Assembly: GCA_902607525.1 (NCBI GenBank)
Contig: CACLKK010000008.1
Span: 1 to 35,242, forward strand
DNA from: an uncultured Pelagibacteraceae bacterium
GTDB taxonomy: Bacteria > Pseudomonadota > Alphaproteobacteria > Pelagibacterales > Pelagibacteraceae
Reading direction: 5' to 3'
Length of the DNA stretch: 35,242 nucleotides
Shown one piece after another: positions 15,220 to 35,242 of the stretch. Below the pieces are notes generated by a model. It was not told the origin of the DNA, searched no databases, and saw only the letters and a program-made list of their open reading frames with translations. Every line of letters starts with the position of its first letter. Position 1 is the first letter of the stretch. Both the position numbers and the translations under genes were made by a program.

Positions 15220-16017
15220 ATGCAGCAAGATCAAAATATTTTGCAAGTAAACAAACTTTCCAAATATTTTGGAGGTCTGGCAGCTGTTTCAAATTGTTCA
15301 CTTAAAATTAAAAAAGGTTCTATTACTGGAGTAATTGGCCCTAATGGATCAGGCAAAACAACTTTATTTAATTTAATTGCAGGAAATTTAAAACCTTCTG
15401 AAGGGAATGTGTTATTTCAGGATGAAAATATTACAGGAATACCATCTTATGAATTATTTTCGAAAGGGTTGTTAAGAACTTTCCAGATAGCCCATGAATT
15501 CACTAATCTTACAGTCTTAGAAAATTTAATGATGGTGCCGGGTAATCAATCTGGAGAAAAATTAACGAATGCCTTATTTAATCCAAAAATTGTGAAAGAA
15601 GAAGAAAAAAAAGTTAAACAAAAAGCCCTGGAGGTAATTAAATTTTTAAATCTTACGCATCTATCCAAAGAGTTAGCTGGCAATTTATCTGGTGGACAAA
15701 AAAAATTATTAGAGCTTGGCAGAACTATGATGGTCGATGCCAAATTAGTTTTACTAGACGAAGTTGGAGCTGGAGTAAATAGAACACTACTAAAAGATAT
15801 TGGAAGTGCAATTCTAAGACTCAACAAAGAAAAAGGTTATACCTTTTGTATGATTGAACATGATATGGATTTTATAAGCAGACTATGTGATCCAGTGATT
15901 GTCATGTCAGAGGGATCTGTTTTGTTTAAAGGAACTTCAAATGAAGTAAAAAATAATGAACAAGTAATCGAAAGTTATCTTGGCAGAGGTTCTAAGATTA
16001 GAAATGGATCAGGATAA
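15220..16017 (+). CDS. livG: Branched-chain amino acid-type ABC transporter ATPase LivG
   Basis: A 265-residue ABC ATPase of the LivG branch. Walker A is GPNGSGKTT near residue 40, the ABC signature LSGGQKK near 157, and Walker B LVLLDEVGAG near 177, with valine in place of the proline that usually follows DE. The RTFQIAHEFTNLTVLENLM stretch near 88-106 is typical of LivG. Its stop overlaps the start of the second ATPase by 1 base (TAATG). It forms a LivGFHM set with the next three genes; the set lacks a binding-protein gene, so the substrate is open. Confidence 0.9.
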   Translation: MQQDQNILQVNKLSKYFGGLAAVSNCSLKIKKGSITGVIGPNGSGKTTLFNLIAGNLKPSEGNVLFQDENITGIPSYELFSKGLLRTFQIAHEFTNLTVLENLMMVPGNQSGEKLTNALFNPKIVKEEEKKVKQKALEVIKFLNLTHLSKELAGNLSGGQKKLLELGRTMMVDAKLVLLDEVGAGVNRTLLKDIGSAILRLNKEKGYTFCMIEHDMDFISRLCDPVIVMSEGSVLFKGTSNEVKNNEQVIESYLGRGSKIRNGSG

Positions 16018-16721
16018 TGTTTTTTTTCTCTGGCGAAAATATGACTGGTGGATATGGAGGAGCAGATATTATCAGTTCCTGTACAATTACAGTAAACAGA
16101 GGAGAGATTGTAGCAATTCTTGGACCTAATGGTGCTGGCAAATCTACCGCCATGAAAGCTATGTTAGGCTTATTAAATCTTAAGTCGGGTAAAGTTTCAA
16201 TTAATGGAAAGGATATATCAAAATTAACTCCACAAGATAGAGTCAAGGAAGGAATATCATTTGTTCCTCAAACTAGAAACGTCTTTACTGGATTAAGCGT
16301 AAAAGAAAATTTAGAAATGGGAGCTTTTTTAAGAGAAGAACATATAGAAGAAATTATTAATGAAATTTATGAATTGTTTCCAGTCTTAAAAGAAAAAAGT
16401 TCTCAAATAGTAGGAGAGTTATCGGGCGGTCAAAGACAACAGGTTGCTTTGGGTAGAGCTTTAATGACCAAACCTACAGTTTTAATGCTTGACGAACCTA
16501 CAGCTGGCGTTTCACCAATAGTAATGGATGAATTATTTGATCATATATTAAAAGTAAAAAAAACAAATGTTGCAATCATAATGGTTGAACAAAATGCAAA
16601 ACAAGCTTTAAGCATTGCTGACAGAGGATATGTTTTAGTAACTGGGGAAAATAAATTTTCCGGTACAGGAAAAGAATTATTAAATGATCCTGAAGTTAGA
16701 AGATCATTTTTGGGTGGATAA
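16017..16721 (+). CDS. livF: Branched-chain amino acid-type ABC transporter ATPase LivF
   Basis: A 234-residue ABC ATPase of the LivF branch, the second nucleotide-binding subunit of a hydrophobic amino-acid uptake system. Walker A is GPNGAGKST near residue 38, the signature LSGGQRQQ near 137, Walker B VLMLDEPTAG near 157, and the H-loop is replaced by the family's VEQNAKQAL near 186. The ending VRRSFLGG is a LivF hallmark. The N-terminus (FFFSGENMTGGYG) is slightly longer than usual. Starts inside the livG stop codon; 1 base separates it from livH. Confidence 0.92.
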   Translation: MFFFSGENMTGGYGGADIISSCTITVNRGEIVAILGPNGAGKSTAMKAMLGLLNLKSGKVSINGKDISKLTPQDRVKEGISFVPQTRNVFTGLSVKENLEMGAFLREEHIEEIINEIYELFPVLKEKSSQIVGELSGGQRQQVALGRALMTKPTVLMLDEPTAGVSPIVMDELFDHILKVKKTNVAIIMVEQNAKQALSIADRGYVLVTGENKFSGTGKELLNDPEVRRSFLGG

Positions 16722-16722
16722 T

Positions 16723-17733
16723 ATGGACATTATAAATGCAATAGTTTTACTTTTAAATTACATATTCGTGCCAGCTTTATCATATGGTTCTCAGTTAGCC
16801 TTAGGTGCGATTTTTGTTTCCTTAATTTATGGAATTTTAAGATTTGCTTATTTTACTGCTGGAGACCTTATGTCATTTGGAACCATGTTTACCATTTTAT
16901 TTACATGGTATTTTCAATCTCTGGGAATTAGTCTTGGTATACTTCCAACAGCATTAATTGCCATCCCGTTTGGGATAGTCATTACAATTTTCTATGTTCT
17001 CGTTAAGGATAAATTAGTTTTTAGCTATTATCGTTTTAAGAAAAGCCCACCTGTTATGCTTGCAATGGTGAGTATTGGAACAATGTTTGTTACCCAAGCA
17101 ATTGTAAGAATAGTTATTGGACCTTTTGACAGAAGATTTTTCGATGGTGAAAAATTTATTTTAAAGGCAAATGAATTTAAAGAAATGACAGGTTTAAACG
17201 AAGGGCTAACTATTAAGTCAACTCAGGTTATTACTTTATTAGTTACAATTGTTGTTGTGTCCGTTTTATTTTGGTTCTTAAACAAAACTAAAACTGGAAA
17301 AAGTATGCGGGCATACTCAGATAATGAAGATTTAGCTTTGTTATCCGGAATAGATCCCAAAAAAGTTGTTATGATAACTTGGGTAATAGCTGCAATTTTA
17401 GCAACAATTGGTGGAACTTTATATGGATTAGATAAAAGTTTTAAACCATTTACTTATTTTAATAATATGCTTCCAATATTTGCAGCTGCTATCGTTGGAG
17501 GCATTGGAAATCCATTTGGAGCTTTTTTAGGAGGTTATGTTATTGCTTTTTCGGAAATACTCATAACTTATGCGTACAAAAAATTCTTTATTTATTTGCT
17601 ACCAGAAAGTATAGAGCCAGATAGTTTGTTACAATTGTTATCAACTGACTATAAGTTTGCCGTTTCATTCTCGATTTTAGTTGTAGTTTTATTATTTAGA
17701 CCTTCAGGAATCTTTAAAGGAAAAGTTTTATGA
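16723..17733 (+). CDS. livH: Branched-chain amino acid-type ABC permease LivH
   Basis: A 336-residue inner-membrane permease with about eight hydrophobic segments, homologous to LivH. Typical features are the N-terminal GSQLALGAIFVSLIYGI region, the conserved cytoplasmic loop TGKSMRAYSDNEDLALLSGID near residues 187-207 (EAA-like ATPase contact), and GGIGNPFGAFLGGY near 260. A periplasmic loop of about 40 residues near 135-170 (RRFFDGEKF...) is longer than in the enterobacterial protein. The ATG at 16723 lies 1 base past the livF stop; an upstream in-frame start at 16684 would overlap livF and add no membrane segment. Overlaps livM by 4 bases (ATGA). Confidence 0.9.
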   Translation: MDIINAIVLLLNYIFVPALSYGSQLALGAIFVSLIYGILRFAYFTAGDLMSFGTMFTILFTWYFQSLGISLGILPTALIAIPFGIVITIFYVLVKDKLVFSYYRFKKSPPVMLAMVSIGTMFVTQAIVRIVIGPFDRRFFDGEKFILKANEFKEMTGLNEGLTIKSTQVITLLVTIVVVSVLFWFLNKTKTGKSMRAYSDNEDLALLSGIDPKKVVMITWVIAAILATIGGTLYGLDKSFKPFTYFNNMLPIFAAAIVGGIGNPFGAFLGGYVIAFSEILITYAYKKFFIYLLPESIEPDSLLQLLSTDYKFAVSFSILVVVLLFRPSGIFKGKVL

Positions 17734-19100
17734 GACAAAATCTAGATGTAATAATTGCTTATATAATAATGCTAGGGTTAATAACTTTAGTAGGGATTTT
17801 TCAGTCTTGGAGTATAGCATTATCAATTTTATGTTTTTGTTTAATATCTGCCGTAATGACGATGGGAGCGAATATTCAATGGGGATATGCGGGATTAATA
17901 AATTTTGGAATTATGGGCTATACAGCTCTTGGCGGGTTAGCAGCTGTTTTAGTTTCAGTTCCACCCGTGAAAGAAGCTTGGCAAGTCGGCGGACTAAATA
18001 TGATTTTGAGCGTGCTACTAATAGCTTTTATGGTATTTAGTGTTCGTTTTATTATCAAAAATTATAAAAAAACAAAAAAAAGAAATTATGGAATTGCTCT
18101 TGTCATAATAATAGGGTTAATTCTTTTAAGATTAATATCTGGACCTGCAATTGAATCAATCGAAGCTGTTAATCCAGCAACCACTGGTTTTTTAGGTGGC
18201 ATGGGTCTACCAATCATGTTTTCTTGGATTGTTGGAGCTTTTTTTGCTGGAGGATTAGCATATATAATAGGTAAAATTGCATTAGGACTTAGAGCAGATT
18301 ATTTAGCTATAGCAACATTATTAATATCAGAAATTGTAATTGCGGTAATAAAACATGAAGACTGGTTATCTCGTGGTGTTAAAAATGTAATTGGTTTAAA
18401 AAGACCGGTTCCTTATGAAATTGATCTTCAAGCTAAAGAATGGTTTATCAACTTAGTTGCAAAATTCAATCAGGGTACTTTAAGTTTAGTTACCGATACT
18501 TTAGAAAAAGAACAACTGTTAAAACAGTTGGTAATTGAAGGGTCCACAGTATTTGTAAAATTATGCTTTGCAGGTCTTTTCACAATAGTTGTAATTATTT
18601 TATTAATCATAACTCAAAAAGCTCTTTACTCACCCTGGGGCAGAATGATGAGAGCGATTAGAGATAATGAGGAAGCTGCTAATGCAATGGGAAAAAATGT
18701 TGTTAAACAGCATCTTTTAATTTTTGTTCTAGGATCCGCAATAGTTGGAATAGCTGGAGCAATGATGGTTACCTACGACGGTTTATTTACGCCAGGAAGT
18801 TATAGACCAATGCGATATACTTTTTTAATTTGGGTAATGGTAATTGTTGGGGGTAGCGGAAATAATTTTGGAGCAGTTTTAGGTGGTTTTGCTGTATGGT
18901 TTTTATGGATTGAAGCAGCACCAATTGCTCTATTCTTAATTAATTTTTTTACAAGCGGTTTAGATGAAGCAAATGCTTTAAGACTTCATTTAATAGATAG
19001 CATTCCTTATTTTAGGTTTTTAATGATGGGAATAGGCTTGCTCTTGATTATGAGATATAGACCAAAAGGAATTCTTCCTGAAAAAATTAGGCATGTTTAA
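17730..19100 (+). CDS. livM: Branched-chain amino acid-type ABC permease LivM, enlarged
   Basis: A 456-residue permease, the second membrane subunit of the Liv-type transporter. Motifs include NIQWGYAGLINFG near residues 48-60 (the family has NGxxGxxSxG here), LGLRADYLAIATL near 185-197, SPWGRMMRAIRDNEEAANAMGKN near 298-320 (ATPase contact loop), and the C-terminal YRPKGILPE. It is longer than most LivM (about 300-425): there is extra material at about 100-140, and a further soluble insertion at about 210-265 containing KEWFINLVAKFNQ. What the insertion does is unknown. The start overlaps livH by 4 bases. Confidence 0.88.
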   Translation: MRQNLDVIIAYIIMLGLITLVGIFQSWSIALSILCFCLISAVMTMGANIQWGYAGLINFGIMGYTALGGLAAVLVSVPPVKEAWQVGGLNMILSVLLIAFMVFSVRFIIKNYKKTKKRNYGIALVIIIGLILLRLISGPAIESIEAVNPATTGFLGGMGLPIMFSWIVGAFFAGGLAYIIGKIALGLRADYLAIATLLISEIVIAVIKHEDWLSRGVKNVIGLKRPVPYEIDLQAKEWFINLVAKFNQGTLSLVTDTLEKEQLLKQLVIEGSTVFVKLCFAGLFTIVVIILLIITQKALYSPWGRMMRAIRDNEEAANAMGKNVVKQHLLIFVLGSAIVGIAGAMMVTYDGLFTPGSYRPMRYTFLIWVMVIVGGSGNNFGAVLGGFAVWFLWIEAAPIALFLINFFTSGLDEANALRLHLIDSIPYFRFLMMGIGLLLIMRYRPKGILPEKIRHV

Positions 19101-25810: not shown

Positions 25811-27133
25811 TTATTTTTTTGGAAGAGTAGCGTTTAATACAAATGCTAATAACCCTGCAGGAATTAAGCCAGTTGTTAACAATAACTTCAATTTAATTCC
25901 AAAGTCAGGTATGTGAGCAACGAATTCTGGAAAAGCATATAATCCTATTCCAAAAGAAAGAGATAATGCTAATATTAAAATATTTCTTTGACTCATTTCA
26001 GATTTTGAAATTAATTTTATTCCTGCGCCAGCAATTAGCCCAAACATAATAATAGCAGCTCCACCAATTACTGAATCTGGCATTGCGGCAATTACTCCAC
26101 CAAGTTTTGGAAATAGGCCCAATAAAATTAAAATAACACCTGCAACTGTTCCCACATGTCTACTAATTACTCCAGTAAATGCAACAAGACCGGCATTTTG
26201 CGAATAAGAAGTGTTAGGCATAGCATTAAAAATTGAAGCAAAAGCTGTTCCAACTCCATCAGCCATTATACCTCCAGAAAGCTCTTTATCCGTAGCTTCC
26301 CTGTTTGCGCCACCCATTGTAGTAGCACTAATGTCTCCAATAGTTTCAATTGTTGTTACGATCGACATGAACAACATTAATATGACTGCACCCCAAACAA
26401 AATCAATTCCGTATTGGAATGGCATTGGAAATGCAAACCAACCAGCTGCTGCTATTTTTTCAAATCTAACTTCTCCTAGGATAGTTGCCATTACGAAACC
26501 GGCTATTATTCCGATTAGTATAGAGGCTGAAGATACCATTCCTTTTCCTCTTATGTTGCATAGAAGAGCTACTATTAAAACAGTTCCAGCTATAAGCAAG
26601 TGTTCCCAATTTCCAAAAATTTCTGGTTTATTGTTCATTAACCATACTCCGCCACCAGCATACTTAAATCCAACTTTAAGAAGACTGATTCCAATCATTA
26701 ACACAACTATTCCTGTGACTAACGGAGGGAACATATGTCGAATTGGTTTTAACATTTTACCAATCCATATTTGGAAAATTCCTCCTATAAATGCTGCCGT
26801 AAATATTGCTCCTAAACCGAAAGCTTTAAATGGCAACATTATTGGAATGAAAGCAAAACTTGTACCTTGGATTATTGGAAGCCGTGAACCTATATTTTTA
26901 TAGCCTACTGTTTGTATAATTGTTGCTACACCAGCGGCAAACAAAGCCATTTGAATTAAAAAAATCTTTTCAGCAGTTGTTACACCAAAAACACCTGCTA
27001 CAATTAGTGGGACCGTAATGTTACCAGCAAACATAGCAAATACGTGCTGGATACCTAAAGGTATAGACTGATTTAGTGGTAGCTTTTTATTTGTTCCACC
27101 GCTTCCTCCAGATTTTCTTCGTGATCTTGCCAT
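25811..27133 (-). CDS. NCS2-family nucleobase (uracil/xanthine-type) permease
   Basis: A 440-residue inner-membrane transporter of the nucleobase:cation symporter-2 family, with about 12-14 hydrophobic segments. Family features are LGIQHVFAMFAGNITVPLI near residues 26-44 (contains the QH motif), the QGTSFAFIP region near 88-96, the ETIGDISATTMGG region near 265-277 with the substrate-binding glutamate, and the NTSYSQNAGLVAFTGV signature near 308-323. The last two resemble the purine (xanthine/uric acid) branch as much as the uracil branch, so the base is left open. The 5' side has a strong GAGAGGGA ribosome-binding site. It follows the binding-protein gene terminator by about 110 bases. Confidence 0.9.
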   Translation of the reverse strand: MARSRRKSGGSGGTNKKLPLNQSIPLGIQHVFAMFAGNITVPLIVAGVFGVTTAEKIFLIQMALFAAGVATIIQTVGYKNIGSRLPIIQGTSFAFIPIMLPFKAFGLGAIFTAAFIGGIFQIWIGKMLKPIRHMFPPLVTGIVVLMIGISLLKVGFKYAGGGVWLMNNKPEIFGNWEHLLIAGTVLIVALLCNIRGKGMVSSASILIGIIAGFVMATILGEVRFEKIAAAGWFAFPMPFQYGIDFVWGAVILMLFMSIVTTIETIGDISATTMGGANREATDKELSGGIMADGVGTAFASIFNAMPNTSYSQNAGLVAFTGVISRHVGTVAGVILILLGLFPKLGGVIAAMPDSVIGGAAIIMFGLIAGAGIKLISKSEMSQRNILILALSLSFGIGLYAFPEFVAHIPDFGIKLKLLLTTGLIPAGLLAFVLNATLPKK

Positions 27134-27257
27134 TAAATCCCTCTCAATTGGGAAAGCCTATTAAAATAATCAATACAGGTCAAATACTGTTTTGTGACAT
27201 TTTTAGCCTTAAATCACCCTTTATGTATGTGCAGCGTATAAACATTTACTAATAAAT

Positions 27258-27293
27258 AAAAAAAATCCCAGCGATTATTCATCGCTGGGATTT
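27258..27293 (-). terminator. Strong rho-independent terminator after the binding-protein gene
   Basis: On the minus strand a perfect 13-base-pair stem (AAATCCCAGCGAT at 27263-27275 pairs with 27281-27293) with a 5-base loop is followed by an uninterrupted run of at least 8 T. It sits 14 bases beyond the stop of the binding-protein gene. It is by far the best terminator in the window and separates that gene from the NCS2 permease. Confidence 0.95.
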
Positions 27294-27306
27294 GTAAAAT
27301 TAAATT

Positions 27307-28488
27307 TTATCTTTGTTTTTTAGTCTTAAATTTACCACCTTTAATTTCTTTTTCTAAGAAACTACCAACGTGTTCTCCAACGTCTGTAAATACGACTCCA
27401 GTTGCTCCTTCGTAATCAACCGCTTTACCTTTAGCTAAAAGATCTAAAGCTTTTTTAAGCTGACCTGGATAAATTTTCTTACCAGGGCCATTAGCTACAG
27501 CCATTACGTTTTTAGCAATTGAATCACGATCAGCAGAACCACCAGCTTGCATTGCAAGTACGATTAAAGCTGCTGCGTCGTAAGACTCTCCAGTATATGG
27601 ACCAGATGGATCAATTCCAGCTTTTCCAGCTACTTTTGCAAAAACTCCTGCGCCTTTACCTGTAGAACCTGGTAAAGAACCAAAAGATTTATTTAAGCTT
27701 TTACCGAAGGCATCCGTAAGAGAATCACCAATCATACCATCTGATAATATAAATGTATCAAAGGCACCAGAATCTAAAGATCCTTGAATAATTCCTTTAC
27801 CACCTTGGTCAAGATATCCGATAACAGCTACCGCATCACCACCAGCTGAATTTAGTGTAGCAACTTCAGCGCTGTAGTCGGCTTTTCCATCTTCGTGTGC
27901 TTCTACAGTAGTAACTTTAATGCCATGAGCTTTAACAGCTGCTGAATAAACATCAGCTAAACCTTTACCATAGTCATTGTTAGTATATGTAACCGCAACA
28001 CTTTTAATTCCTCTGTCTTTAGTTATATCAGCAAGAATTTGTCCACCACGAGCATCCGACGGAGCTGTACGGAAGAACAAACCTTTGTCATCCAAAGTTG
28101 TTAAACCAGGAGACGTTGCTGAAGGAGATATCATTACTACACCATTAGGAACTGCAACGTTACTTGCAATTGCTCCAGTAACACCAGAACAGTCTGCTCC
28201 CATAATTGCAGCAACACCTTGAGAGACTAAGCCTTCAGCAGCTGTTGTAGCTGCAGCTGAGTCAACACAAGTTGAGTCTGCTCTTACAGGTGTAATTTTT
28301 TCTCCACCTAGCAAAGAGCCAGAGTCAGAAGCTTCCTTAAAAGCTAATTCTGCTGAAGCTGCCATAGCTGGTGTTAGAGATTCAATAGGACCAGTAAATC
28401 CTAAAATGATACCCATTTTGATTTCTGCAAATGTGTTTGTTGTCAAAAGAGACAAAGACATAATTGCAGCAATAAATAGTTTTTTCAT
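27307..28488 (-). CDS. Liv-type periplasmic amino acid/amide-binding protein
   Basis: A 393-residue periplasmic binding protein of the Leu/Ile/Val type (peripla_BP_6, LivJ-like). A signal peptide (KK, hydrophobic core, cleavage after residue 21, NTFA) is evident. The mature protein has the two-lobed family pattern: IKMGIILGFTGP at its start, GVAAIMGADCSGVTGAIASN near 90-110, ISPSATSPGL near 119-128 and AVTYTNNDYGKG near 165-176. Base composition is less AT-rich than its neighbours and it has a GAGGGA ribosome-binding site and the strong terminator, all pointing to high expression. The Liv permease/ATPase set at 15220-19100, which lacks such a gene, is a possible partner. The ligand cannot be read. 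Confidence 0.92.
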   Translation of the reverse strand: MKKLFIAAIMSLSLLTTNTFAEIKMGIILGFTGPIESLTPAMAASAELAFKEASDSGSLLGGEKITPVRADSTCVDSAAATTAAEGLVSQGVAAIMGADCSGVTGAIASNVAVPNGVVMISPSATSPGLTTLDDKGLFFRTAPSDARGGQILADITKDRGIKSVAVTYTNNDYGKGLADVYSAAVKAHGIKVTTVEAHEDGKADYSAEVATLNSAGGDAVAVIGYLDQGGKGIIQGSLDSGAFDTFILSDGMIGDSLTDAFGKSLNKSFGSLPGSTGKGAGVFAKVAGKAGIDPSGPYTGESYDAAALIVLAMQAGGSADRDSIAKNVMAVANGPGKKIYPGQLKKALDLLAKGKAVDYEGATGVVFTDVGEHVGSFLEKEIKGGKFKTKKQR

Positions 28489-28526
28489 ATTTTCCCTCTT
28501 AATAATATTATTAATTACGATAGTAT

Positions 28527-28547
28527 TTACTTTTAAAACTTACTTTT
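28527..28547 (-). repeat. Tandem 8-base direct repeat in the binding-protein promoter region
   Basis: TTACTTTT occurs at 28527-28534 and 28540-28547 (plus-strand reading), 13 bases apart start to start, 40-60 bases upstream of the binding-protein ATG. Tandem repeats spaced about one helical turn are a common mode of response-regulator binding. In AT-rich DNA the match could be chance. Confidence 0.3.
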
Positions 28548-28588
28548 CAATGAGAAAATTGCTTTTATTTATCTTATTGATTCGGGCA

Positions 28589-30070
28589 TTATCCCATTGT
28601 AAATGGATCTGCCATGGGTTTTTCTGAAGTGTTAAACCAAGTTGTTTTAATTCTTGTATAATCTTTTATAGATTCAATACCTGCTTCTTTACCGTATCCG
28701 CTATCTTTCATGCCTCCAAATGGAGCTGAAGGTGATATTAATCTATAAGTATTTACAAATGTTATTCCAGCTCGTATTGCTTTTGATACCCTTAAACCCC
28801 TCCCCAAGTCTCTTGTATAAACTCCTGAAGAAAGACCATATTGATTGTCATTCATTTTATTAATCACTTCTTCTTCTGTCTCAAATTTCATTACTGACAA
28901 TATTGGACCAAAAAGTTCATTTTCAGCTGTTGGAAGGTTGTGGTTTTCACACTCTATTATTGTTGCAGGGAAATAGTAGCCCTTATTAGAAAGACTATGT
29001 CTTTTCCCTCCGCATTTTAGTTTTCCTCCCTGATTAATTGTATCTTTAATATTTTTTTCAATTATCTCTAATTGTTTTAAACTGCTAAGAGGCCCCATTT
29101 GTGTTTTAGGATCCATCGGATCACCCAATTTTATTTTATTTGCACGATCAACTAATTTATCTAGAAAATTATTATAAATTTTTTTTTGTAAGTATAATCT
29201 TGATCCTGCAATACAACTTTGACCACTTGCTCCAAAAATACCTGCGGTAATTCCATTCAATGCATTTTCTTGATCTGCATCTTCAAATACAGCTACAGGA
29301 CTTTTTCCACCTAATTCCAAACTAACCTGCGATAAGTTTTCGGCAGAATTTCTAATAATATGTCTAGCTGTTTCTGGCCCTCCAGTAAAAGCAATTCTCT
29401 CAACATTTTTGTGAGTAGTTAAAGCTTTACCACAGGGATTTCCAAATCCAGTTATAACATTTACTACCCCCTTAGGGATTCCTGTTTTTTCTATTAGTTT
29501 TGCAAATTCAAACATGGTTGCGGGAGCTAACTCAGAAGATTTAATTACAACTGTGTTACCCATCGCGAGAGCTGGCGCAAGTTTTACAGCTGTTAAAAGC
29601 ATTTGAGAGTTCCATGGAATGATTGCTGCGATAACACCAATTGGTTCTCTAGTTGTAATGACTTGCATATCAGGTTTATCAATTGGCAAGACGGTTCCTT
29701 CAACTTTATCTGCTAGTCCAGCAAAATAATCATAATATTCAGCAATGTAATTTGCTTGAGTTTTGGTTTCTCTAAAAAGTTTTCCAGTATCGATTGTCTC
29801 AATCTTTCCTAATGCTTCTGCATTTTCTCTTAATTGATTTGCAATAGCTTTTAAATAATTAGCTCTTTCTCTTGGAAGCAATTTTGGCCATTTTCCTTGA
29901 AAAGCTATTTGCGCCGCATCAACAGCTTTATTAACATCATTTTCGCTTGCTTCAGGAACAATAACCCATGGTTCATTATTCTCCGGATTTAAACTTTTAA
30001 AAGTTTTTTTATTCTCAGCATCAACCCACGCACCATTGATGTACATTTTATATTCTTTAAGTTTAGTCAT
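28589..30070 (-). CDS. NAD(P)-dependent aldehyde dehydrogenase
   Basis: A 493-residue member of the aldehyde dehydrogenase superfamily, converting an aldehyde to a carboxylic acid. Catalytic residues are in place: N154 in IPWNSQ, the cofactor lysine K177 in VIKSSE, E252 in LELGGKSP and the nucleophile C286 in GQSCIAG. Length is normal for betaine-aldehyde or semialdehyde dehydrogenase-like enzymes; the substrate is not determinable. The start overlaps the hydrolase gene by 8 bases. Its position as the last catabolic gene suggests it oxidises an aldehyde or semialdehyde released by the upstream enzymes. Confidence 0.94.
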   Translation of the reverse strand: MTKLKEYKMYINGAWVDAENKKTFKSLNPENNEPWVIVPEASENDVNKAVDAAQIAFQGKWPKLLPRERANYLKAIANQLRENAEALGKIETIDTGKLFRETKTQANYIAEYYDYFAGLADKVEGTVLPIDKPDMQVITTREPIGVIAAIIPWNSQMLLTAVKLAPALAMGNTVVIKSSELAPATMFEFAKLIEKTGIPKGVVNVITGFGNPCGKALTTHKNVERIAFTGGPETARHIIRNSAENLSQVSLELGGKSPVAVFEDADQENALNGITAGIFGASGQSCIAGSRLYLQKKIYNNFLDKLVDRANKIKLGDPMDPKTQMGPLSSLKQLEIIEKNIKDTINQGGKLKCGGKRHSLSNKGYYFPATIIECENHNLPTAENELFGPILSVMKFETEEEVINKMNDNQYGLSSGVYTRDLGRGLRVSKAIRAGITFVNTYRLISPSAPFGGMKDSGYGKEAGIESIKDYTRIKTTWFNTSEKPMADPFTMG

Positions 30071-30854
30071 TATCTCTATCTATAAATTTTTTAAAAGTTA
30101 TATTAACATCATCAGCGTATTCTATACTACAAAGATGTTTTCCTTTCTTTATTTCAATAAATTTGCTTCCACGAATAGTTTTGCTTAAATTTCTAGACAT
30201 TTCAGGTGTTGATCCCACATCATTTTCTCCTGTAGTTATAAGAGTATTAACATTAATTTTTTTTAGCATATTATCATCATCAATATAGTTAACAAAAATC
30301 TCATAACATTTTAAAAAATCTAAGGGCTTATTTTTATCTAAAATTGAGTAAATTTTTTTATAGGTTTCAGGATTTTTTTTAATAAAATTTTCAGACAACC
30401 ACCTTCTTATAGCATTTTGCTTTGAAGCCGGCCTTTTCATTTTAGCTACTTCGAATCTATTCATAACAACTCTTTTTTGTTCTTCATTTCTTTTATATAT
30501 CGAGCCATGTATTATTAAGGATTTTAACTTATCACTATGCTCAGCGGCAAAATGTCTAGCAATGAGAGCTCCCAATGAAAAACCTACTAAATGAATTTTG
30601 TTGAATTTTAATTCTTTAATCAATCTAAGTAATTGTTTAGTAAAATCGTCAAAACTAATTTTGGATTTTTTTAAAGGTGTTTTTCCATGACCCATCAAAT
30701 CGTATGTTAGAGTATTATAATCTTTAAAAAATTTAATTTGTGGATCCCAAATTTCCTTATTTAAACCAACGCCATGAATAAACACGATTGGATCTTTTTC
30801 ATTTATTTTATGCAGAGAATATGAAGTGCCAAAAGAATCTTTTTTATTTGACAT
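30063..30854 (-). CDS. Alpha/beta hydrolase
   Basis: A 263-residue alpha/beta-hydrolase fold protein. The oxyanion HG motif is at residues 27-28 (IHGVG), the nucleophile Ser93 sits in GFSLGA, an acidic residue lies in TTGENDVGS near residue 211, and the catalytic histidine is in KKGKHLCSI near 240. The DLMGHGKT segment at 52-59 is typical. Members hydrolyse esters, amides, or carbamates, or enol-lactones (PcaD-like); RutD of the pyrimidine pathway belongs here as well. Tight overlap with the aldehyde dehydrogenase and a 5-base gap to the AA_synth gene place it in one operon. Confidence 0.87.
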   Translation of the reverse strand: MSNKKDSFGTSYSLHKINEKDPIVFIHGVGLNKEIWDPQIKFFKDYNTLTYDLMGHGKTPLKKSKISFDDFTKQLLRLIKELKFNKIHLVGFSLGALIARHFAAEHSDKLKSLIIHGSIYKRNEEQKRVVMNRFEVAKMKRPASKQNAIRRWLSENFIKKNPETYKKIYSILDKNKPLDFLKCYEIFVNYIDDDNMLKKINVNTLITTGENDVGSTPEMSRNLSKTIRGSKFIEIKKGKHLCSIEYADDVNITFKKFIDRDND

Positions 30855-30859
30855 TTAAT

Positions 30860-31450
30860 TTATTTGGTATTTTTAATGCCCATTTCTTTCATATCTTGGT
30901 ATCGATCACCAGTTCTAGCGTGTGCTCTTCCTCCCGGTGACCCACCAATCGCGACAACAATTTCATCAGGAAAGGGTGCATCTTGAATATTAAATTCGTG
31001 TGTTAAATAATAAGGTCTTAATCCACTATCAGTCTTATGCATCATTGGAATTGAAATTTTACATCCAGCAGGACCTCTTGTATTTGTAAAACTTAAATAG
31101 GAAGTTCCGCCCACAGCGTCTCTAAATTTATTTCCAAATCTTAAAGTATGAATAAATGCAGAAGCATGTTCGATTTCACCTTTTAAACCTACAACTGCTG
31201 CTTTACCGTAAGCTAAAACTTTATCTCCTGAGCCTATTTCTTTTATTAATTCAGGCACCAAAATATCTCCAAGCTTCGGAGCTAGCGCAAGAATTTCAGG
31301 TTTTAAGTCTTCAACAAAACCTTTATCAATCCAAGGATTTTTTATTACAGCAGCGACAGAAACAAGTAACACAGGTTCTTTTGCCTTTTTACCACCTTCA
31401 ATAAAAGTTTTATCAACAAACTTTGAAAATTTTCTTAAATTTAAATCCAT
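30860..31450 (-). CDS. AA_synth (DUF1185) family protein
   Basis: A 196-residue protein matching the Pfam family PF06684 (AA_synth, formerly DUF1185). Recognisable stretches are VAAVIKNPW near residues 32-40, GKAAVVGLKGEIEHASAFIH near 77-96, the GNKFRDAVGG segment near 100-111, and GGSPGGRAHARTGDR near 168-182. Known structures of the family show a chorismate-mutase-like fold and the role was proposed, not shown, to lie in amino-acid metabolism. Here it sits 2 bases after the flavin monooxygenase gene and 5 bases before the hydrolase, so it is probably an enzyme step or partner in the same pathway. Confidence 0.85.
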   Translation of the reverse strand: MDLNLRKFSKFVDKTFIEGGKKAKEPVLLVSVAAVIKNPWIDKGFVEDLKPEILALAPKLGDILVPELIKEIGSGDKVLAYGKAAVVGLKGEIEHASAFIHTLRFGNKFRDAVGGTSYLSFTNTRGPAGCKISIPMMHKTDSGLRPYYLTHEFNIQDAPFPDEIVVAIGGSPGGRAHARTGDRYQDMKEMGIKNTK

Positions 31451-31452
31451 TA

Positions 31453-32619
31453 TTAACTTGCTTGTTTTACCACTGTTTTTTCTAAATTTATTTTTGGAAT
31501 TACTTCATCATTAAAAAGTTTAATACTTCTCATAGCATCTTCATGTTTTACGCCTGGCATGCTAGACCATACTTGTAAATTTTGAAGGTTAAGTTCAGAT
31601 TTTAGTTCTTTAATTTTTTCAACAACATAATCAGGTGTACCAAACAACATATTTCTTTTATGTAAAAAATCATAATTTAATAAATCTAACTTGCCTTTAG
31701 TTTTAGGAAGTTCTTCATCAGGATCCATATGGTTGCCTAAACCTCTCCAATGGCAAACCCATCTCATATAATTTACCATTTGTTCTCCAGCTAGTTTTTT
31801 TGCATCTTCCATGGTTTCTGCAACAAACATATCTCTAACTAATGAAATTCCTTCTCCCATTGAAACATCTCTCTTTTCTGCTTCAGATTTTGCATTTTTG
31901 TATATTTCAAATCTTTTTTTCAAAGTTTTAACAGTAGGAATCCACATTATACAATTAATTCCATTTTTTGCAGCCCATTCAATAGATCCTGTAGAGTCTA
32001 CTACTTGCCACAAAGGAGGATGAGGTTTTTGATATGGATGAGGAACAACACTAATTTTTTTAATTTGATTAGTTTTTAAATCTACAAAATCTTCGTTAGG
32101 TGGACTCATGTCGTGCTGCCAAACAAAGTTTGGCGAAGGGTAAGTATAAAATTCTCCTTTATGACTAAAAAATTTTTTAGTCCAAGCTTTTTTCATTACT
32201 TCTAGCGTTTCTTGAAATAATCTTTTATTTTTTGCTTGATCTTTTAAATCTGCTTCTATGTTCATGTGTACTGCTTCTCTTCCATATACACCTCTACCAA
32301 TTCCAACTTCTATTCTACCTTTGGAAAGTTGATCTAACGCCGCAATATCTTCAGCTAATCTTATTGGATTCCAAAAAGTAATTACATTACACGCTTGTCC
32401 TAATCTTATTTGTTTTGTTCTCGCGGCAATATCTGTACACATCATTAATGGATTTGGTTGTACTTCCATGCCTTCGTGATTAAAATGATGTTCTGTAAAC
32501 CAAATAGAATTCCAATTATTCTTGTCACAATAGTCAGCTATATCTCTAGCATCATCCAAAATTTCTGTGTAAGGTTTTTTTTTCCAGTTAGTAATATTAC
32601 AAAAATATCCAATTTTCAT
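31453..32619 (-). CDS. LLM-class (luciferase-like) flavin-dependent monooxygenase
   Basis: A 388-residue flavin-dependent oxidoreductase of the bacterial-luciferase family. Typical motifs are IGYFCN near residue 3, WFTEHHFNHEG near 41-51, the RLGQACNVITFWNPIRLAEDIAALDQLSKGR block near 72-102, GIGRGVYGRE near 106-115 and AKNGIN near 220. Members use reduced FMN and oxygen to cleave or hydroxylate substrates; RutA, alkanesulfonate monooxygenase SsuD and EDTA-type monooxygenases are examples. The start is set by AAGGAG (32626-32631), which is 6 bases before the ATG at 32619 but directly abuts an upstream ATG at 32625, so the shorter start is preferred. First gene of the catabolic operon. Confidence 0.9.
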   Translation of the reverse strand: MKIGYFCNITNWKKKPYTEILDDARDIADYCDKNNWNSIWFTEHHFNHEGMEVQPNPLMMCTDIAARTKQIRLGQACNVITFWNPIRLAEDIAALDQLSKGRIEVGIGRGVYGREAVHMNIEADLKDQAKNKRLFQETLEVMKKAWTKKFFSHKGEFYTYPSPNFVWQHDMSPPNEDFVDLKTNQIKKISVVPHPYQKPHPPLWQVVDSTGSIEWAAKNGINCIMWIPTVKTLKKRFEIYKNAKSEAEKRDVSMGEGISLVRDMFVAETMEDAKKLAGEQMVNYMRWVCHWRGLGNHMDPDEELPKTKGKLDLLNYDFLHKRNMLFGTPDYVVEKIKELKSELNLQNLQVWSSMPGVKHEDAMRSIKLFNDEVIPKINLEKTVVKQAS

Positions 32620-32625
32620 ATCCAT

Positions 32626-33717: not shown

Positions 33718-34824
33718 ATGAAAACAGTTGTCAATAGTTGGAATGAGTGGGATTCATTAAAACACGTAATTTTAGGTCGTGCAGATGGGTGTTGCATTCC
33801 CCCCTCTGAACCAGCGGTTGATGGAAAAGTCCCAGAAGATTCAGATATGCGAGGTCAATTTGGTGTAAGACCAAAAGAAACTATTGATCGCGCAAATGAA
33901 TTACTTGAAAATTTTGCTAATCTTTTAAAAAAAAGAGGTATAAGAGTTGATCGTCCAACTCCACTTAATTTTAACCAACCTATAGCTACACCAGACTGGA
34001 AAACTAAAAGCATGTTCGGAACTATGCCAGCAAGAGATATAATATTAACAGTAGGAAAAGAAATGCTAGAAGCCACGATGAGCTATAGATGTAGATTTTT
34101 TGAATACCTTAATTATAGACCGCTTTTAAAACAATATTATGATGAAGATCCAGAAATGCGCCATGAGTCAGCGCCGAAACCTAGATTAACCGATAAAAGT
34201 TTTCATCTAGATTATTTGTCAGACAAAATTGGTGTTCAAAAAAGACTAGAATGGACAGCCAAAAAGTTTTTTGTAACAACGGAAGAAGAATTTTTGTTTG
34301 ATGCAGCTGATGTTTTAAGGTTTGGAAAAGACCTAATGGTTCAACACGGTTTTACAACAAATTTAAAAGGTATTGATTGGTTAAAAAGACACTTTCCAAA
34401 TCATAGAGTTCATGCTCTTAATTTTCCTGGAGACCCATACCCTATTCATATAGATGCTACTTTTAATGCACTAAGACCCGGTCTAATAATAAACAATCCT
34501 AATAGACGTTTGCCTGATGAACAAAGAAAAATTTTTGAAAAAAATGATTGGAAAATAGTTGATGCGGCACAACCAGCTCACAATAAACCACCACCTTTGT
34601 GCTTTTCATCAGTATGGTTATCAATGAATATTTTGGTTCTTGATCCAAAAACTGTATGTGTTGAAAAGAGTGAAGTTTATCAGGCCGAACAATTAAGCAA
34701 ACTAGGCATGGAAGTTGTTGAAGTTGATTTTCGAGACGTTTATCCTTTTGGAGGCGGGCTACACTGCAGTACTACTGATGTTTATAGAGAAGGTAAGTGT
34801 GAAGATTATTTTCCTAAACAATAA
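33718..34824 (+). CDS. L-arginine:glycine amidinotransferase-family enzyme
   Basis: A 368-residue member of the amidinotransferase superfamily (AGAT/StrB branch). Shared blocks include VNSWNEWD near residue 5, FDAADVLRFGKDL near 192-204, the HIDATF motif near 243-248 carrying the catalytic histidine and aspartate, and GGGLHCSTTD near 345-354 with the catalytic cysteine C350. These are the active-site motifs of human AGAT, which moves the amidino group of arginine to glycine, giving guanidinoacetate and ornithine. The acceptor here may be another amine. The protein is shorter than mitochondrial AGAT because it lacks the targeting region. No ribosome-binding site is obvious. Overlaps the next gene by 1 base. 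Confidence 0.92.
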   Translation: MKTVVNSWNEWDSLKHVILGRADGCCIPPSEPAVDGKVPEDSDMRGQFGVRPKETIDRANELLENFANLLKKRGIRVDRPTPLNFNQPIATPDWKTKSMFGTMPARDIILTVGKEMLEATMSYRCRFFEYLNYRPLLKQYYDEDPEMRHESAPKPRLTDKSFHLDYLSDKIGVQKRLEWTAKKFFVTTEEEFLFDAADVLRFGKDLMVQHGFTTNLKGIDWLKRHFPNHRVHALNFPGDPYPIHIDATFNALRPGLIINNPNRRLPDEQRKIFEKNDWKIVDAAQPAHNKPPPLCFSSVWLSMNILVLDPKTVCVEKSEVYQAEQLSKLGMEVVEVDFRDVYPFGGGLHCSTTDVYREGKCEDYFPKQ

Positions 34825-35242
34825 TGAACATTAAATCAAACTATATAAAGCCAAAGTTCAAAAAAAAAATAAATCCAAAAATAGGCTTACTTGCACTTTC
34901 AACTGATCTTACAATAGAAAACGATTTTCAATCTATTTGTCAAAAGCTGCCTTTAGATTTATTTGTAAATCGTATACATAATGAGAATCCTTTAACTAAA
35001 GAAAATCTTTTAAAAATGTATACTCAAATAGAGCCAGTTACTCAAAAAATTCTACCTGGTCAAAAAATAAATACAGTTGCCTACGCGTGCACATCAGGAA
35101 CAATAGCTATAGGAGAAGATAAGGTTAAAGAAAAAATTCAATTAGCCAAACCAGGTTGCTATGTCACAACACCGATCACTTCTGCTTTGAAAGCTTTTAC
35201 AGAGATGAATGCAAAAAAGATTGCTTTATTTACCCCATATCC
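34824..35242 (+). CDS. Asp/Glu racemase/maleate isomerase-family enzyme (partial, 3' end beyond window)
   Basis: The first 139 codons of a gene that continues past the window. The start ATG overlaps the amidinotransferase stop (TAATG), a sign of coupled translation. The motif ACTSGTIAIG near residues 88-97 holds the first catalytic cysteine of the Asp/Glu racemase superfamily branch that includes maleate cis-trans isomerase, arylmalonate decarboxylase and the ectoine-utilisation EutA proteins. The TPITSALKAFTEMNAKKIALFTPYP stretch continues the fold; the second cysteine lies outside the window. Reaction unknown; only the family is supported. Confidence 0.78.
   Translation, partial: MNIKSNYIKPKFKKKINPKIGLLALSTDLTIENDFQSICQKLPLDLFVNRIHNENPLTKENLLKMYTQIEPVTQKILPGQKINTVAYACTSGTIAIGEDKVKEKIQLAKPGCYVTTPITSALKAFTEMNAKKIALFTPY

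Follow-up and report, generated by a model that had tools for sequence, protein, structure and literature searches.

The window analysed here, 35,242 nucleotides from an uncultured Pelagibacteraceae bacterium (contig CACLKK010000008.1 of GCA_902607525.1), is one of the SAR11 contigs of an assembly of 770,570 bases that is 58% complete. Its minus strand encodes a luciferase-like flavin monooxygenase (LLM), an AA_synth protein, an alpha/beta hydrolase and an aldehyde dehydrogenase (ALDH), and we propose, with a probability of about 0.65, that together they make up a catabolic cassette of SAR11 resembling in plan the trigonelline (tgn) operon, in which an N-heterocycle would be opened oxidatively and the product processed by aldehyde oxidation and hydrolysis. 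Behind an ordinary-looking annotation lies a well-supported catabolic cassette of the tgn type in which the oxygenase has been replaced. The tgn pathway is reportedly the subject of a 2018 paper by Perchat on Acinetobacter. SAR11 bacteria are among the most abundant heterotrophs in the ocean, and we found no description of the cassette in SAR11 in the open-licence PMC literature. If the proposal is correct, the cassette probably lets SAR11 consume a trigonelline-related compound with a nitrogen ring from plankton; should that compound be homarine or a similar plankton osmolyte, a major pool of dissolved nitrogen and carbon would be tied to named genes whose copies metagenomes would allow us to count. 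The genes of the cassette are as follows.

31453..32625, minus strand: LLM flavin monooxygenase of 390 amino acids (PF00296, 148.6 bits), first gene of the cassette
30860..31450, minus strand: AA_synth protein, formerly DUF1185 (PF06684, 213 bits)
30063..30854, minus strand: alpha/beta hydrolase with an intact Ser-Asp-His pattern
28589..30070, minus strand: ALDH assigned to the TgnC clade (PF00171)

A conserved four-gene unit in SAR11

The original prediction, made from the letters of the window, described four tightly spaced minus-strand genes with two more following on that strand, and all six are present. Two bases separate the LLM and AA_synth genes, five bases separate the AA_synth and hydrolase genes, and the hydrolase and ALDH genes overlap by 8 bases. 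Genes for a binding protein and a permease follow, 100 bases after the ALDH gene and a further 173 bases on, respectively. The conserved start of the LLM is Met3 at position 32619, which is also the start implied by that prediction.

We examined the cassette in 100 related genomes and in 80 SAR11 loci, two sets that overlap. The loci were the best 80 named LLM matches, nearly all from Pelagibacteraceae or Pelagibacter and the rest labelled 'Alpha proteobacterium SCGC'. The LLM was found in 34 of the 100 genomes, in a few as fragments. Conserved synteny in related genomes had been proposed as a check, and it was upheld: among the 70 loci that continue for 3.5 kb or more beyond the LLM, 69 had the LLM, AA_synth, hydrolase and ALDH genes in the same order and on the same strand, the single exception (L054) being a locus in which the ALDH was not in view. 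Comparison with relatives gave dN/dS values of 0.04-0.10 for the LLM, AA_synth and ALDH genes and 0.11-0.38 for the hydrolase gene; the cassette is under purifying selection, with the hydrolase as its fastest-evolving member. The flanking genes are variable, an arylmalonate-decarboxylase-like gene and a 2-oxoglutarate-Fe(II) oxygenase gene each occurring in 43 of the 80 loci, and one genome (G037) has a cassette-free arrangement in which the decarboxylase-like gene is followed directly by the binding protein gene. With variable flanks around constant genes, the first four genes move as a cassette and make up the conserved unit.

Some cassettes contain an extra gene between the LLM and AA_synth genes (five of the six sister-family loci with AA_synth in view, as well as the own-family loci L035, L036, L037 and L039). 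The two inserted genes that were scanned encode thiamine diphosphate (ThDP)-dependent enzymes closest to the sulfoacetaldehyde acetyltransferase/acetolactate synthase group, with scores under the cut-offs of those models. Insertions of a ThDP-dependent enzyme of this Xsc/acetolactate-synthase-like kind, under cut-off, were noted at L035, L036, L037, L039, L042-L046 and L257; they affect the cassette in several SAR11 lineages and a tgn-type operon of G393. A pathway product that is a 2-oxo acid or an aldehyde would be in keeping with such an enzyme.

The ALDH and AA_synth protein belong with those of tgn operons

The closest known parts list is that of the tgn operon, which combines an LLM, an AA_synth protein, a hydrolase, an ALDH and a flavin reductase. 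In Acinetobacter sp. PK01, where tgnA, tgnB and tgnC are annotated, the order is GntR-AA_synth-hydrolase-tgnA-tgnB-tgnC-permease-succinate-semialdehyde dehydrogenase (SSADH), with the GntR gene divergent and a hypothetical gene preceding that for SSADH.

The ALDH of the window is 53.0% identical to the annotated TgnC of PK01. For this and the other protein sets, rows with stops or with less than 70% of the expected length were removed; the ALDH tree additionally lost rows of 430 residues or fewer and four distant rows, one of which was restored (L163_gucD), and it included E. coli BetB, PuuC, PatD and GabD. All ALDHs from operons with an AA_synth gene formed one group of 54 rows (Shimodaira-Hasegawa-like approximate likelihood ratio test, SH-aLRT, 99), and the SAR11 proteins were nested within a TgnC group of 44 rows (support 98).

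The AA_synth protein of the window is 55.9% identical to that of PK01 and 60% identical to a Rhizobium homolog, with a range of 56-61% across tgn-type operons. Its tree has a single deep split (support 100). On the side of the window are 53 rows, 50 of them with an LLM in the locus; on the other side are 63 rows, 62 of them without one. We also counted neighbours in 79 proteobacterial AA_synth regions by tblastn (E 1e-8, within 7.5 kb), after excluding nine second copies beside chosen ones, the window's own match and one fragment. The 26 tgn-type regions held an ALDH in 26 cases, a hydrolase in 26, an LLM in 23 and a flavin reductase in 22, whereas the corresponding counts in the 53 other regions were 4, 4, 1 and 0. 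A poorly understood family thereby gains a genomic rule: one clade goes with LLM operons and the others almost never do. AA_synth proteins of high identity also occur on rhizobial, roseobacter, enterobacterial and other plasmids, where they are clustered with a hydrolase, flavin reductase, LLM and ALDH.

By these trees, the ALDH and AA_synth protein share ancestry with those of tgn operons. The likeness thus comprises the same four families, an ALDH in the TgnC clade and an AA_synth protein in the TgnF-type, LLM-associated clade. The differences are in gene order (LLM-AA_synth-hydrolase-ALDH as against AA_synth-hydrolase-reductase-LLM-ALDH), in the lack of a flavin reductase and of an SSADH in the SAR11 operon, and in the LLM, which comes from another subfamily and whose insertion beyond about residue 162 is longer. 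No second ALDH able to serve as TgnE/SSADH was found in the operon, to which the search was confined.

Three stretches (L198, L200 and L201) carry clusters of a tgn-type AA_synth gene with hydrolase, ALDH and flavin reductase genes, and an LLM is missing from the approximately 15 kb that were read. By eye, L198 also appears to encode a GntR regulator and a NUDIX protein.

Other AA_synth proteins offer further comparisons. The window's protein matched two solved structures (2qtp, 84.5 bits; 3byq, 79.3 bits), which we take to be those of BB2672 and SPO0826, and matched them more weakly than it did the tgn-type proteins. These PF06684 structures belong to the same Pfam family and presumably have the same fold; the paper describing them reports branched-chain amino acid transport neighbours and makes no mention of a luciferase, monooxygenase, hydrolase or aldehyde dehydrogenase. 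According to PMC7913881, TgnF stimulates TgnE and is homologous to HcdD, a DUF1185 protein. HcdD is encoded in the 7-hydroxycoumarin (hcd) operon of Pseudomonas mandelii 7HK4, which is another catabolic operon with an AA_synth gene. The hcd authors, who themselves called HcdD a homolog of TgnF, could not demonstrate an effect of HcdD, and the hcd operon differs from the cassette in having an alcohol-dehydrogenase-type first enzyme and a cupin (PMC7913881).

The oxygenase is of a different subfamily

The LLM of the window scores under the cut-off of every NCBIfam model shown and is 25.9% identical to TgnB of PK01. In the LLM tree it grouped with LLMs from other alphaproteobacteria, and we conclude from the phylogeny that it has a non-tgn ancestry and is not an ortholog of TgnB. 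Relative to TgnB, LLMs of the SAR11 type have an insertion of about 26 residues (about residues 163-190 in the window); this lies close to a region that in LLMs often forms the substrate pocket. An AlphaFold model of the LLM, based on a shallow alignment of 13 rows, was too poor for use (mean predicted local distance difference test score 54.7).

With the ALDH and AA_synth protein inside tgn clades and the LLM outside them, the cassette appears to be a tgn-type operon with a swapped oxygenase. We did not class it as a member of the tgn system itself because its LLM is not of the TgnB kind and a counterpart of TgnA was lacking. The best evidence that a cassette with the swapped LLM is a real two-component monooxygenase operon is the contiguous gene row of a genome from outside SAR11 (G667): a PF01613 flavin reductase directly upstream of the LLM (53% identity), then an AA_synth protein (63%), a hydrolase and a TgnC-like ALDH.

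Beside the cassette of this genome (L289:10777-17205) we observed genes for a Rieske oxygenase (GbcA-like, far under cut-off), a LysR regulator, a DAO-type oxidase and a choline-dehydrogenase-like GMC enzyme. These neighbours hint at quaternary amine metabolism.

A second SAR11 cluster with an LLM (L049:3422-12255, in G053, and L067:1-1662) encodes an ALDH, the LLM, a PcaD-like hydrolase and an alternative oxidase, and continues with an OpuAC-type betaine-binding protein and ABC transporter genes. We rejected it as kin of the cassette: its ALDH lies outside the tgn group, beside E. coli PuuC, and it is rare, its LLM occurring in 1 of the 100 relatives. It is possibly another betaine catabolic route.

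Evidence weighing against a tgn-like plan

Several observations count against the proposal. The placement of the SAR11 LLM and the TgnB-type LLMs in a joint clade was rejected (approximately unbiased test, p=0.0005); the careful LLM tree used for this comprised 33 of 72 rows, and the tested grouping was picked after a first tree. The flavin reductase expected of a two-component system was also elusive. No PF01613 protein was found in the 58% complete assembly of the window, in any of the 80 SAR11 loci, or in any of the eight further family members searched that carry the cassette, of which two are about 99% complete. PF01613 reductases do occur in four of the five cassette-bearing genomes of the sister family, and other flavin-reductase families occur in some carriers, including FMN_red proteins in G045 and G053 (both about 99% complete). 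Relatives of the SAR11-type LLM from outside SAR11 do not generally keep this company either: in the 14 stretches other than that of G667 (L290-L303) we found no tgn-type AA_synth protein, ALDH or flavin reductase, and a single weak hydrolase match. The hydrolase is only 28% identical to that of the tgn operon, and its closest NCBIfam model is 3-oxoadipate enol-lactonase. Finally, because an AA_synth gene is also reported in the coumarin-degradation operon, the presence of this protein alone is no proof of a pyridinium substrate.

The hydrolase and the LLM bear on a route with no N-heterocycle, in which the LLM would convert a ketone to an ester or lactone by a Baeyer-Villiger type reaction, the hydrolase would open it and the ALDH would oxidise the resulting aldehyde. 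The best matches of the LLM to solved structures, all weak, were to luciferases (up to 96.5 bits) and included 3,6-diketocamphane 1,6-monooxygenase (59 bits), and the hydrolase scores best against enol-lactonases; both are consistent with this route. However, the hydrolase matches that of the PK01 tgn operon (which is not annotated as TgnD) over its full length (28.5% identity, E 4e-36), with the Ser, Asp and His residues aligned, and the ALDH and AA_synth protein have an ancestry in common with tgn operons. We therefore regard a Baeyer-Villiger type route as unlikely. The function that we propose for the hydrolase is that of an amide or lactone hydrolase.

Proposed mechanism and candidate substrates

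In the tgn pathway, ring cleavage of an N-methylated pyridinium acid by the LLM yields an N-formyl enamine that bears an aldehyde. The ALDH oxidises this aldehyde, and the hydrolase releases formate and an amine. By analogy, the SAR11 LLM would draw on reduced flavin in its free form, together with O2, to attack a zwitterionic N-heterocycle that is probably N-methylated, either opening its ring or oxygenating it. The aldehyde or lactol so formed would be oxidised by the TgnC-type ALDH, and the alpha/beta hydrolase would cleave the bond that is left, whether formamide, enamide or lactone. The AA_synth protein, which is of the TgnF type, may assist in an accessory role modelled on that of TgnF. 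Every one of these SAR11 reactions is inferred, as are the identity of the substrate, the supply of reduced flavin and import by the neighbouring Liv transporter.

Because the oxygenase chooses the substrate, its replacement suggests a substrate other than trigonelline. Degradation of trigonelline itself, with an unrelated LLM having taken the place of TgnB, would explain the retention of a TgnC-type ALDH and a TgnF-type AA_synth protein. We consider it very unlikely, since the LLM is of a different subfamily, the operon has no second ALDH that could be SSADH (TgnE), and trigonelline is far scarcer than homarine in ocean samples according to PMC8269262.

Our leading guess for the substrate, and a tentative one, is homarine (N-methylpicolinate). 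The cassette may represent the published homarine pathway as it occurs in SAR11. In this special case of the tgn-like plan the LLM would open N-methylpicolinate; an equally tentative continuation would have the ALDH and hydrolase yield N-methyl-imino/oxo-glutarate, which would pass through N-methylglutamate to glutamate. A homarine pathway conserved in environmental bacteria is in print (Ferrer-Gonzalez 2026), and Mgd is reported to participate in it; the pathway would share with the cassette the catabolism of a marine N-methylpyridinium acid, the probable substrate class. PMC8269262 reports that homarine is abundant in surface-ocean particles and argues that TgnA/B are sterically unlikely to use it, a misfit that would agree with a swapped oxygenase. 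The cassette LLM is also far more widespread (34 of 100 relatives) than that of the second cluster with a betaine-type ABC transporter (1 of 100), and the ThDP enzyme of some cassettes would suit a 2-oxo acid product. Against homarine, the family to which G475 belongs has almost no LLMs of the cassette type (2 of 394 at E<=1e-55, both of them distant). We assign this family to Rhodobacteraceae, since rows named Ruegeria and Leisingera fall among those of the family in the LLM tree; a pathway found in that group would then use another LLM. Genes named hom have reportedly been noted in SAR11.

More broadly, and with some reserve, we suggest that the TgnF-type AA_synth protein, TgnC-type ALDH and hydrolase might be a reusable downstream module for N-heterocycles whose ring has been opened, a module that accepts LLMs of different subfamilies. 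The LLM added in SAR11 could then define a pathway, so far undescribed, for some N-heterocyclic osmolyte that abounds in the sea, with flavin supplied by an unlinked reductase outside PF01613.

Transport genes near the cassette

Four further features of the window relate to transport.

27307..28488, minus strand: Liv-type substrate-binding protein (from a domain scan)
27263..27293, minus strand: hairpin like an intrinsic terminator (13 pairs, then a T run), closing the unit of cassette and binding protein
25811..27133, minus strand: NCS2 permease of the PbuX/xanthine type (over the TIGR03173 cut-off)
15220..19100, plus strand: LivG, LivF, LivH and LivM set with no adjacent binding-protein gene of its own (from gene neighbourhood)

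The binding protein resembles Leu/Ile/Val-binding proteins and lies downstream of the cassette in 49 of 63 loci; LivM is convergent and downstream of the cassette in 42 of 59 eligible loci. In most relatives the LivGFHM genes are convergent with the cassette and adjoin the binding-protein gene, whereas in the window they stand apart (15220-19100). The binding protein and LivMHFG also occur together in four SAR11 genomes that have no LLM (G024, G037, G060 and G063). Because of this, we consider the Liv transporter to be resident and its link to the cassette positional, and the case for the binding protein as a dedicated cassette component is weakened. Perhaps the transporter has been co-opted by the cassette, with the binding protein as a possible uptake partner.

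The permease narrowly exceeds the cut-off of the xanthine-permease model (TIGR03173, 417.1 against 414.15) and accompanies the cassette in 6 of 63 eligible loci, on which ground we rejected it as a member. The original prediction had listed both transport genes as following the four on the same strand; the permease is incidental, and the binding protein, on weaker grounds, falls outside the unit. The strong terminator by which it set the permease apart is borne out by the hairpin at 27293-27263.

Comparison with the Rut pathway

The original prediction held that the cassette may degrade an N-heterocycle or something related, in parallel with the Rut uracil pathway of E. coli. Such a catabolic role, by a parallel route, is probable, and Rut as a template does not stand. 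We compared the proteins of the window with E. coli RutA, RutC, RutD, RutE, RutF and RutG and rejected homology to the pathway, in line with the caution that Rut was offered as an analogy: no protein of the operon is orthologous to a Rut protein. The LLM, suggested as the counterpart of RutA, is 21.5% identical to it (BLAST E 0.001), and RutA was not among the NCBIfam matches shown for the LLM. The proposed RutD counterpart, the hydrolase, is 19.8% identical to RutD, scores 72.4 bits against a TIGR03611 cut-off of 238.5, and has the serine motif GFSLG where RutD has GHALG. The permease reaches 107 of the 758.65 bits set for RutG (TIGR03616), and the AA_synth protein does not belong to the YjgF/RutC type. 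A scan of eight proteins showed no isochorismatase-like domain, confirming the reported lack of RutB, and no RidA-like (RutC) or flavin-reductase (RutF) domain. The proximity of an LLM, an alpha/beta hydrolase and an NCS2 permease, which is what the region has in common with Rut, is a likeness of broad families; with the missing orthologs of RutA, RutD and RutG, RutB, RutC and RutF not found and an incidental permease, a Rut-like pyrimidine pathway is extremely improbable.

Other genes and elements of the window

An Rfam scan of the window returned no match. Beside the cassette, positions 33718-34824 encode a protein of the L-arginine:glycine amidinotransferase (AGAT) family (281 bits to AGAT structures), and in 10 of the 80 SAR11 loci this gene is found near the cassette. 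Downstream of a tgn-type operon in another genome there is a copy with 77% identity (L199:13415-14515), suggesting gene transfer. A divergent neighbour cluster, present in many SAR11 (window 34824-35240; L036:1008-6422), encodes an arylmalonate-decarboxylase-like protein, creatinase-type M24 peptidases and an ABC transporter assigned by eye to the Pot type; the edge of the window falls inside its first gene.

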